46,398 nt of DNA from Chloroflexota bacterium (GTDB lineage: Archaea; Iainarchaeota; Iainarchaeia; Iainarchaeales; GCA-2688035): the NCBI GenBank assembly GCA_017610335.1, contig JAFCCG010000013.1, positions 1 to 46,398 on the forward strand. Reading direction: 5' to 3'. Below are positions 43,981-46,324 of the stretch, piece by piece; within the stretch, counting starts at the first letter, position 1; each line of letters opens with the position of its first letter. The position numbers and the translations under genes are program-made. Under the pieces are notes generated by a model. The model saw only the letters and a list, made by a program, of their open reading frames with translations, was not told the DNA's origin and did no database searches.

Positions 43981-44073
43981 AGAATTCATTCTTGCCATAA
44001 TTAAAGCAGGTATCCTCCAAACTAATTCTTAGACAATTAAGGCAAACAATGTTTTCAAGAATAGGAAGCTTAA

Positions 44074-44098
44074 AACCATTAATTTTAAGGCCTTGACA
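44074..44098 (+). promoter_or_regulatory. Copy A of a shared 25-bp promoter-like element
   Basis: AAACCATTAATTTTAAGGCCTTGACA recurs at 46280 with three mismatches. TTTTAAGG could be the TATA box, with a start near 44110 at a 24-codon leaderless-type ORF (44103-44177). Confidence 0.45.
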
Positions 44099-44102
44099 TT
44101 AT

Positions 44103-44177
44103 ATGATGCGTACGGCAATAATGAGATTAACACCTACCCCCTTACAACAAGTTCCGATAAAAATAGGGCATATTTAA
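44103..44177 (+). CDS. Possible 24-residue leaderless ORF
   Basis: MMRTAIMRLTPTPLQQVPIKIGHI opens with tandem ATGs about 20-25 bp after the TTTTAAGG element and ends at TAA 44177. No ribosome site. The only support is its position relative to a promoter-like motif shared with the exported-protein gene at 46325. It could be chance. Confidence 0.25.
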   Translation: MMRTAIMRLTPTPLQQVPIKIGHI

Positions 44178-44238
44178 TGGGCATTGAATGTGTACTATTT
44201 ATATACTTTATTGCATATTTATTGAGTATGGTGATTTT
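44168..44238 (+). promoter_or_regulatory. Promoter and possible operator of the toxin-antitoxin pair
   Basis: GCATATTTAATG (44169) and GCATATTTATTG (44213) are near-identical 12-mers 44 bp apart, flanking TATTTATATACTTTA, a TATA-like element. GGTGATTTTATG then sets the antitoxin start. Repeated sites around the promoter fit antitoxin/complex autoregulation, common in this class (inference). Confidence 0.45.
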
Positions 44239-44475
44239 ATGAATGCAGACCTTGGAGTGCCTTATGAGGCAATCATGAAAAAGGCAATTGAAAAAGGCTA
44301 TGCTGGAAACCAGACAGAAGTTATCAGACAGGCTTTGCTTAGCTATGAGAGAATGATTGAAGAAGAGGAAAAAGAACTTGTTGCCAAGGCGGTTAAAATA
44401 GAAATGGACGAAGTAAAAGCAGGCAACATCAAAACAAAGTCTTTTGGCAAAGTCAAGAAAGAGTTTAAGTGGTAA
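44239..44475 (+). CDS. Ribbon-helix-helix antitoxin
   Basis: 78 residues from MNADLGVPYEAIMKKAIEKGYAGNQTEVIRQALLSYERMIEEEEKELV. The short N-terminal strand followed by two helices with GNQTEVIRQAL is the RHH DNA-binding/dimerisation unit; the C-terminal acidic-to-basic segment (MDEVKAGNIKTKSFGKVKKEFKW) would bind the toxin. The track start at 44188 runs through the promoter, so ATG 44239 is preferred. It is followed 1 nt after its stop by the toxin gene. Confidence 0.85.
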   Translation: MNADLGVPYEAIMKKAIEKGYAGNQTEVIRQALLSYERMIEEEEKELVAKAVKIEMDEVKAGNIKTKSFGKVKKEFKW

Positions 44476-44476
44476 A

Positions 44477-44737
44477 ATGGAAGTACGAATTCTTGAAACC
44501 GCTGAAAAAGAACTTGAGAAAATAGCCAATCCCTTAAACAAACAGTTCGGAAAACATATTGAAAAAATTGCTTCGAAAGAAATCGATAGACACATGAAAC
44601 GCGGTTTGCCTTACTTCACTGAAAATGTTACAAAACAAGCAAGAATTATTTACTACCTCGAGGATGAAACCATTTTCATCCTGCACTGCTTCAAAAACCA
44701 TAAAGAATACGAAAGATGGTACAAGTCATTCAAGTAA
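44477..44737 (+). CDS. RelE/ParE-superfamily toxin
   Basis: 86 residues from MEVRILETAEKELEKIANPLNKQFGKHIEKIA. ARIIYYLEDETIFILHCFKNHKEYERWY is the core beta-sheet and terminal strand/helix of RelE/ParE folds. RelE toxins cleave mRNA in the ribosome A site and ParE poisons gyrase; the subtype is not decidable by eye, though the His-Lys-Glu-Tyr end is RelE-like. It forms a bicistron with the RHH gene. Confidence 0.85.
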   Translation: MEVRILETAEKELEKIANPLNKQFGKHIEKIASKEIDRHMKRGLPYFTENVTKQARIIYYLEDETIFILHCFKNHKEYERWYKSFK

Positions 44738-44869: not shown

Positions 44870-44903
44870 CAGAGAAAAAAGAAAATAAAAAAGAAAAAGA
44901 GTT
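44870..44903 (-). terminator. Pyrimidine-rich stretch after hsp20
   Basis: On the minus strand, immediately after the hsp20 stop, the sequence reads CTCTTTTTCTTTTTTATTTTC and onward. Archaeal RNA polymerase terminates efficiently at such U-rich runs, so this is the likely hsp20 terminator. Confidence 0.55.
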
Positions 44904-45380
44904 TTACTTTACTTCAATTTGCTTTGGCTTGTATTCAGGCAGTTCTTTTTTTGGGATTGAAATTTTTAGGACGCCGTTTTCATAGTTTGCATCTGCTTTT
45001 TCCTCATCCGCATTTTCTGGCAAGGAAAAGCTTCTGTAGAATCCTTTGAAAGAGCGCTCGATTCTGTGAACACCTTTTTTCTTTTCCTCTTTTTCATGCT
45101 TTTTCTCTGCTTTTATTTCAAGCAGCCCTTTCTTGATATTAAGCTTAATGTCTTTTTTGTCAATTCCGGGCAAATCTATTTCTGCTTTGAATTCTTTGTC
45201 AGTTTCCCAAAAATCGGTTAATGGCGTGCTGAGATCTTCTACTTTCTCTGGAAGCATTGAAGCTGTTGTTGGAATAAGTCTTCCCTTGTCTGCAAAATGC
45301 TCGCCTCTAAAAAAATCTTCAAACAAGGAATCCATTCTTTCCTGCATTCTCTTCATCTCATCCCAAATGCTTCTCACCAT
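44904..45380 (-). CDS. hsp20: Small heat-shock protein (Hsp20/alpha-crystallin)
   Basis: 158 residues. An N-terminal amphipathic region (VRSIWDEMKRMQERMDSLFEDFFRGEHF) is followed by the alpha-crystallin domain: DFWETDKEFKAEIDLPGIDKKDIKLNIKKGLLEIKAEKK...IERSFKGFYRSFSLPENADEEKADANYENGVLKISIPKK. It is an ATP-independent holdase. A very strong ribosome site (CTTGGAGGTGATTGT) precedes the ATG. A 42-codon ORF and a terminator-like hairpin lie in its leader, suggesting leader-based control. Confidence 0.96.
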   Translation of the reverse strand: MVRSIWDEMKRMQERMDSLFEDFFRGEHFADKGRLIPTTASMLPEKVEDLSTPLTDFWETDKEFKAEIDLPGIDKKDIKLNIKKGLLEIKAEKKHEKEEKKKGVHRIERSFKGFYRSFSLPENADEEKADANYENGVLKISIPKKELPEYKPKQIEVK

Positions 45381-45405
45381 ACAATCACCTCCAAGTTATC
45401 TTTTG

Positions 45406-45534
45406 CTATTTTTTAGAGCAATACCAGTGGTTTTTACAGTTATATCCATCAAAAATTGTAAAGGTGGGTTTTGAGGGAGAAAAAAAGGCAATCGCCTTTC
45501 TCCCAAAAACATGGCGATTGCCTGAAAAACACAT
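45406..45534 (-). CDS. 42-residue leader ORF upstream of hsp20
   Basis: On the minus strand AAGGGAGGTGTTTGAAATG starts a frame reading MCFSGNRHVFGRKAIAFFSP...YNCKNHWYCSKK, which stops 25 nt before the hsp20 ATG. The ribosome site is as strong as that of hsp20. The ORF encloses the hairpin/T7 element, so it may be a leader peptide rather than a functional protein. The Cys/His-containing end (YNCKNHWYC) is unusual. I do not recognise it; it is below the track's size limit. Confidence 0.5.
   Translation of the reverse strand: MCFSGNRHVFGRKAIAFFSPSKPTFTIFDGYNCKNHWYCSKK
45475..45522 (-). promoter_or_regulatory. Terminator-like hairpin with competing alternative fold in the hsp20 leader
   Basis: Minus-strand order: GGCAATCGCC (45522-45513), 16-nt loop, GGCGATTGCC (45496-45487), then T7 (45486-45480): a perfect 10-bp stem plus U-tract. 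Alternatively GGGAG/AAAGGC (45504-45494) pairs with GCCTTT and CTCCC (45489-45475) around a GATT loop, using the same right arm and the T-tract. The two folds exclude each other, as in terminator/antiterminator switches. Confidence 0.65.
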
Positions 45535-45671
45535 TTCAAACACCTCCCTTGTTTTTCATTTATATTCTTATATCGCCTCCTTCTTCAGCAACACGAAAAA
45601 ATAGTGCTTTTTTTCTTTAAAAGCTTTTTTTCAAAAAAAATTCAAAAAATAATACTAAAAGAAACTTTTAA
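45523..45671. other. Remaining hsp20/Lrp-like intergenic sequence
   Basis: The 326-bp gap from 45381 to 45706 holds the leader ORF and hairpin (above), this AT-rich promoter stretch with long A/T runs (e.g. CTTTTTTTCAAAAAAAATTC), and the palindrome next to the regulator gene. I see no further gene in it. Confidence 0.6.
45555..45572 (-). promoter_or_regulatory. Candidate TATA element of the hsp20 transcript
   Basis: The minus strand reads GATATAAGAATATAAATG just upstream of the leader ORF. Either TATAAG or TATAAA could be the TATA box, giving a start close to the leader ribosome site. Another TTTTAAAG lies ~55 bp further upstream (about 45622-45630). Confidence 0.4.
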
Positions 45672-45705
45672 CAATATTTTTATTTTTTTCGGAACAAAAA
45701 TATTG
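45672..45705 (+). promoter_or_regulatory. 10-bp inverted repeat abutting the Lrp-like regulator start
   Basis: CAATATTTTT (45672-45681) and AAAAATATTG (45696-45705) form a perfect inverted repeat with a 14-bp spacer, ending one base before the ATG at 45707. It overlaps the expected transcription start and TATA region, so it is a likely autoregulatory operator. Confidence 0.6.
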
Positions 45706-45706
45706 C

Positions 45707-46219
45707 ATGGAAAAGCTGACAAAACGAGAATCACAGGTTCTTACAGAACTTCTTAAGAACGCAAAAACAACAGACCAAGAAATAGCGAGAAGAATAGGCA
45801 TTTCAAGGCCAGGAGTAGCAAAAATACGGGGAAGGCTCGAAACCAGAGGAATAATAAAAGGTTACCGTGCACTGCCGAACTACGAAAAGCTCGACCTCAA
45901 AATACACGCCATAATACTCTACAGATGGAAAGACTACTCAAAAAAACAAGAACTGGAAGAAGTGATAGAATACATAAAAAAACAGCCACAGATTATACTA
46001 TTCGTGAAAGGAGAAGGAATGGGCAGCAAAACAGACGCAATAATTTCCATCCACGAACAACTGGAAGATTACGAAAAATTCATACGCAACCTCAAAAACG
46101 TGTGGAAAGACAACGTGGAAGACATTGAAGTATTCCTCTCATCAGTATCAGGAATAAACAAAGAATACTTACTAAACAGTCCCGCACTGGAAAAAATATC
46201 GCAAATAGTAAAACAATAA
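45707..46219 (+). CDS. Lrp/AsnC-like winged-helix regulator
   Basis: 170 residues. LTKRESQVLTELLKNAKTTDQEIARRIGISRPGVAKIRGRLETRGIIKGYRALPNYEKLDL is an AsnC-type HTH with linker. The following beta-alpha domain (IHAIILYRWKDYSKKQELEEVIEYIKKQPQIILFVKGEGMGSKTDAIISIHEQLEDYEKFIRNL) resembles RAM/ligand-binding modules in length and alternation. No ribosome site, so a leaderless transcript is likely. It is divergent from hsp20 and could control it or itself. Codon use (frequent ATA, CTC, AAC) looks slightly different from neighbours. Confidence 0.88.
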   Translation: MEKLTKRESQVLTELLKNAKTTDQEIARRIGISRPGVAKIRGRLETRGIIKGYRALPNYEKLDLKIHAIILYRWKDYSKKQELEEVIEYIKKQPQIILFVKGEGMGSKTDAIISIHEQLEDYEKFIRNLKNVWKDNVEDIEVFLSSVSGINKEYLLNSPALEKISQIVKQ

Positions 46220-46279
46220 TGGCAAAATAGTCTGCAGCAACCTAATTCCTTCGCCGGAAGAAAACAAAAAATGGCTATG

Positions 46280-46304
46280 AAACCGTTAATTTTAAGGCAT
46301 TAAC
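46280..46304 (+). promoter_or_regulatory. Copy B of a shared 25-bp promoter-like element
   Basis: AAACCGTTAATTTTAAGGCATTAACA matches 44074-44098 at 22 of 25 positions. TTTTAAGG is centred about 32 bp before the ATG at 46325, giving a short-leader or leaderless transcript. Confidence 0.5.
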
Positions 46305-46324
46305 ACCACAGGATATGTAAAGAT

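Follow-up and report, generated by a model that had tools for sequence, protein, structure and literature searches.

How the only HSP20 gene found in this archaeal genome is turned on and off, and whether the short leader in front of it takes part in that control, are the questions raised by this locus. The window, meaning the whole stretch of DNA that was analysed, is an entire contig of 46,398 bases from an incomplete archaeal genome of 1.29 Mb. The gene in question, hsp20 (44904–45380, minus strand), encodes a small heat-shock protein of 158 aa (Pfam PF00011, HSP20; E 9e-25) and lies downstream of a leader that a preliminary description had read as a leader-peptide attenuator. The elements behind that reading are present, exceed chance and probably occupy a 5′ leader, but an antiterminator, a coding signature, a run of regulatory codons and a relative of the peptide are all missing. 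By the tests run, this is not a classical leader-peptide attenuator. It is a real, unusual and possibly functional element, one that likely acts in cis by a putative mechanism and that could serve as a ribosome-gated on/off element for hsp20.

Setting, predicted promoter and reading frame of the leader

The contig appears to be correctly binned, since its Bud32-type kinase is 88% identical to that of a same-genus genome (the ground on which misbinning was considered and rejected) and since a close copy of hsp20 was found in a Candidatus Diapherotrites archaeon genome. The hsp20 gene itself is absent from the five same-genus genomes searched, which are 79–92% complete. Together with a divergent regulator gene it forms a cassette (44882–46319) that is 90–96% identical to its counterpart in a genome of another family (G054/G057), whereas the contig's kinase gene is just 50% identical there, and this disparity suggests that the cassette was probably acquired by recent horizontal transfer. 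The one close copy of the cassette in G054/G057 is on contigs that end at hsp20 codon 24 and regulator codon 83, and elsewhere in the G054 assembly a search for a leader of the window's type returned AT-rich noise alone. Identity to G054/G057 stops where a 40-nt repeat ends (46319); this repeat is also present at 44073–44112. A weak ParD/ParE-like toxin–antitoxin pair (44233–44737), both members of which fall under Pfam cut-offs, adjoins hsp20.

A promoter block for hsp20 with a BRE/TATA-like sequence, GAAAAAAAGCTTTTAAAG, is predicted at 45615–45659 (minus strand) by homology to regulator-linked promoters of Pacearchaeota, to which it is identical at 35, 33, 33 and 30 of 45 positions; the maximum reached in 5000 mononucleotide shuffles of the comparison was 27–28. 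Its distance from the regulator start is also similar, at 61 nt in the window versus 64–65 nt in Pacearchaeota. The TATA-like CTTTTAAAG near 45618 would set the transcript start at about 45592, so that the first ribosome site, the leader ORF and the hairpins described below would all lie within the hsp20 mRNA, and the leader is thus probably transcribed. Weaker TATA-like sequences, which might serve instead, occur closer to that ribosome site (45574–45558) and at about 45440.

The preliminary description had pointed to an ORF of 42 codons with a very strong ribosome site, and both are in place. The ORF (45406–45534, minus strand; MCFSGNRHVFGRKAIAFFSPSKPTFTIFDGYNCKNHWYCSKK) runs from an ATG at 45534 to a TAG stop ending at 45406 and is preceded by SD1, GGGAGGTG, at 45548–45541; SD2, the ribosome site of hsp20 itself, is GGAGGTGAT (45384–45392, minus strand), a nine-base match to the SD consensus. 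The motif GGAGGTG has just four occurrences on both strands of the 46-kb window, two of which are accounted for by SD1 and the hsp20 site. The peptide is less convincing. Its coding score falls at the 47th percentile of spurious ORFs and the 3rd percentile of gene segments, it has no Pfam or NCBIfam match, and tblastn of its 42 residues against all fetched loci returned only itself. Moreover, it holds neither a regulatory codon run nor a known arrest motif, its longest single-residue repeats being FF and KK.

Two overlapping hairpins and a U-run

Inside the ORF, a perfect 10-bp hairpin followed by T7 had been described; the hairpin and the T run are indeed present, with a stem of 11 bp instead of 10. 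The left arm, AGGCAATCGCC (45513–45523, minus strand), begins 11 nt past the A of the leader ATG, and the right arm, GGCGATTGCCT (45486–45496, minus strand), meets seven consecutive T (U) at the stem base (45480–45486, minus strand). This terminator-type hairpin, with a loop of 16, has a predicted energy of −18.5 kcal/mol at 37 °C. Within the window it is unique as a perfect stem of 11 bp or longer that has at least six GC pairs and leads into a U-run, and none of 30 dinucleotide shuffles produced a stem equal to the 11-bp hairpin with its U-run. The whole leader likewise folds better than shuffles (z −2.6), as does its core (z −3.3).

It is conceivable that the inverted repeat acts as DNA and not as RNA, for example as the end of a mobile element, a recombination site or a protein-binding site, and the apparent movement of the hsp20–regulator cassette between families would fit such a role. 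However, the genome has a single copy of the repeat, which is internal to the cassette and away from the cassette ends, and a T-run follows the repeat on the hsp20 strand only; we regard this as the least probable of the readings weighed. The leader as a whole is also single copy in its genome, and a dispersed repeat or MITE was rejected for the window.

A second hairpin (45475–45504, minus strand), in which GGGAGAAAGGC (45504–45494) pairs with GCCTTTTTTTCTCCC (45489–45475), is found in both the MFE and the centroid structures of the full leader. As the preliminary description had it, this fold joins GGGAG to CTCCC, has its right arm in common with the first hairpin and absorbs the U-run. With the left arm of the first hairpin masked, its energy is −18.0 kcal/mol, compared with −10.4 ± 2.6 kcal/mol in 1000 shuffles of loop and tail, of which 0.7% were as good; the fold therefore beats 99.3% of them.

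Prefix folds, computed with the RNA starting at 45592 or at 45545, give the terminator-type hairpin a probability of 0.98–1.0 when RNA is exposed as far as 45488–45486, with polymerase positioned on the U-run; for the second hairpin the probability is 0.85–0.99 when exposure extends to the CTCCC arm and further, as in read-through RNA. The second fold requires CTCCC (45479–45475), which is transcribed after the U-run, and it therefore cannot antiterminate or decide termination; neither the sequence nor the prefix folds hold an antiterminator that would form before the terminator and exclude it. The proposed competition between the folds thus survives as an overlap of arms and as dominance of the second fold in read-through RNA, but that fold comes too late to be an antiterminator. 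Much the same applies to the proposed ribosome over the left arm. Given where that arm begins, a ribosome positioned on the ATG would overlap it in part, but the alternative fold that such a ribosome was supposed to favour does not antiterminate.

Classical attenuation would have the position of a ribosome on the ORF pick between terminator and antiterminator, with heat or the state of translation as the signal. The hairpin, U-run and ribosome site are correctly placed for it, and bacterial trp/his-type attenuators share with the window a short SD-led ORF and a hairpin directly followed by a U-run, where a ribosome over the left arm blocks the hairpin. Unlike them, however, the window leader has no regulatory codon run, encodes a peptide that looks non-coding and would be read by an archaeal polymerase, and its alternative hairpin lies downstream of and includes the U-run, hence the lack of an antiterminator. 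With the second fold made after the U-run, no coding signature, no peptide relative found and no predicted temperature switch, we consider this reading very improbable.

Nothing ties the leader to heat, which the preliminary description had suggested might act on hsp20 through it. The predicted accessibility of SD2 shows no temperature switch and at 37 and 60 °C is the same as in shuffled leaders (P 0.25–0.53), and a search of Rfam for a known RNA family gave no match; these results argue against an RNA thermometer. The ROSE and fourU thermometers of bacterial small heat-shock genes resemble the window in being structured leaders before such genes, but the window leader has no predicted SD sequestration beyond chance. 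One fold in which the left arm sequesters SD2 (CAAUCGCC:GGUGAUUG) was appealing; it did not exceed shuffles and depends on the assumed transcript start.

The divergent regulator and the leaders of relatives

The gene divergent to hsp20 (45707–46219, plus strand) encodes a winged-helix regulator of 170 aa (HTH_24, PF13412; E 2.6e-8) whose profile matches the solved LrpC and other Lrp-family chains at E values down to 5e-12; domain and profile together place it in the Lrp/AsnC-type class. Immediately upstream of its start is a 10-bp inverted repeat with a loop of 14, CAATATTTTT...AAAAATATTG (45672–45705), which is a candidate operator. Searches around a Pacearchaeota genome recovered regulator orthologs 49–64% identical to the window's, the heat-shock neighbours of which were Pfam-checked for examples. 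These orthologs are divergent to hsp20-grpE at L081 and L087, to groES or groES-groEL at L088, L089, L090, L091, L095, L117 and L118, and to grpE-dnaK at L116; at L057, L092, L093 and L094 the divergent partners are other or small ORFs. We propose this Lrp/AsnC-type family, new here in that role, as a candidate heat-shock regulator of DPANN archaea. The open-licence papers searched yielded no description of a regulator of heat shock in DPANN archaea, which is weak evidence of absence.

Two further observations concern the regulator homologs. The Pacearchaeota genome G056 has two regulator copies, ~90% identical, at L081 (contig C79) and L083 (contig C76), the latter cut near its start by the contig end, with its divergent gene beyond view. 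Upstream of the homologs at L059, L060 and L062 is a conserved-looking element with ends of the GGTGGTTG...CAACCACC type and a GTGAGCC core, for which Rfam gave no match at E 0.1.

With a regulator so placed, it is possible that hsp20 is controlled at its promoter and that the leader is an inert or fast-drifting spacer whose hairpins and ORF are functionless. The known case of heat-shock control in archaea is a regulator bound at the promoter, Phr in Pyrococcus (PMC10746257), and a DNA-binding regulator at the hsp20 promoter is the level of control that this precedent would lead one to expect in the window. The window's regulator differs from Phr in being Lrp/AsnC-type and divergently encoded and, in relatives, in being linked also to groES-groEL and grpE-dnaK. 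Such a leader is missing from most groES genes linked to the regulator (L089, L090, L091, L095, L117 and L118), and the non-coding look of the leader peptide points the same way. Against a spacer, chance is unlikely to have brought a U-run, a pair of overlapping hairpins and a strong, rare SD together in one short leader, and on balance we judge it rather unlikely.

Leaders of similar layout, in which an SD-like site and a TTG start are followed by a strong hairpin, precede hsp20 in G056 and G351 and groES in G380. Their hairpins, AAAGGAAGCT...AGCTTCCTTT, start 18–24 nt into the ORF and have z scores of −3.3 to −3.9; the leader is present in one copy per genome and its sequence is unrelated to that of the window leader. 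These Pacearchaeota leaders have a weak U-run (TTTGCTTTT or TTTGATTG), and the three diverge in the frame that follows the TTG, so that what they have in common is the layout, neither a peptide nor a terminator, and they lend no support to termination as a common function. Covariation in their stems was set aside, the three sequences being near-identical, with a single G-C to G-U change, and too few to count. When the 130 nt before the start were scored in 28 hsp20 leaders, with stem placement judged by eye, a stem containing GC and flanked by a ribosome site on each side was found only in the window and at L047, the G056 locus. Other strong-scoring leaders owed their scores to a repeat made up of A and T only (L008), to a hairpin located between hsp20 genes in tandem (L031) or to stems a good distance upstream of the ribosome site (L006 and L012), and inspection of the remaining fetched hsp20 leaders revealed none with the SD-start-hairpin layout. 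A palindromic element, present once per genome, lies between an SD-like site and groES or hsp20 at L088 (2122–2240, where its ends are TTGATTAA...TTAATCAA) and in the L081 and L087 leaders.

Such leaders make it conceivable that the window's hairpin works after transcription, with the hairpin and, at the 5′ end, a ribosome or an unoccupied SD stabilising or processing the hsp20 mRNA or tuning its translation, and with the U-run incidental. The similar-layout leader does exist in Pacearchaeota without a strong U-run, the G380 element sits between the SD-like site and the groES start where G325 has no insert, and the full-length window RNA favours the non-terminator fold. Yet the hsp20 ribosome site is no more or less accessible than in shuffled leaders, the window and Pacearchaeota leaders are unrelated in sequence, and the position of T7 exactly at the stem base would have to be coincidence. 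We consider a post-transcriptional role unlikely, and place it below the inert spacer.

Ribosome initiation as a possible gate

The reading that we tentatively place first, while still holding it doubtful, is a cis-acting leader gated by ribosome initiation, to which the peptide is irrelevant, in line with its poor coding score. The hsp20 mRNA would start near 45592 and carry the leader, whose likely input would be initiation and not the peptide. If SD1 and its ATG were empty as polymerase reached the U-run, the 11-bp hairpin would form behind the enzyme and favour pausing or release at U7. An initiated ribosome, by covering the left arm, would instead let transcription continue into hsp20, and the second hairpin would then form in the read-through RNA and fold the U-run away. 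On-off control at the promoter would probably fall to the divergent Lrp/AsnC-type regulator.

Several points count against such a gate. It would close when ribosomes are scarce, which makes no obvious heat-shock switch, and T runs of seven or more also occur inside the window's genes on the sense strand, at 0.25 per kb (10 in 41 kb). Moreover, archaeal U-tract termination occurs without preceding hairpins, as seen by Term-seq (PMC8716108), and because the hairpin is not strictly needed it may have no bearing on a stop at U7. The U7 of the leader is within the four to seven U reported for aCPSF1-assisted termination in archaea (PMC8716108); unlike those terminators, the window has a strong hairpin that abuts the U-run inside a leader. 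The open-licence papers searched describe no leader gated by ribosomes for any heat-shock gene of archaea, again weak evidence of absence.

The broadest form of the proposal, that a heat-shock gene of an archaeon is under the control of a transcription attenuator gated by ribosome initiation and that SD-hairpin leaders of this layout arose at least twice beside the same Lrp-type regulator in DPANN archaea, we regard as improbable. If true, it would mean that attenuation can make use of an archaeal polymerase with a ribosome trailing it, even though archaeal U-tract termination needs no hairpins. The linked regulator, for its part, provides a testable entry point to the control of heat shock among uncultured DPANN archaea.
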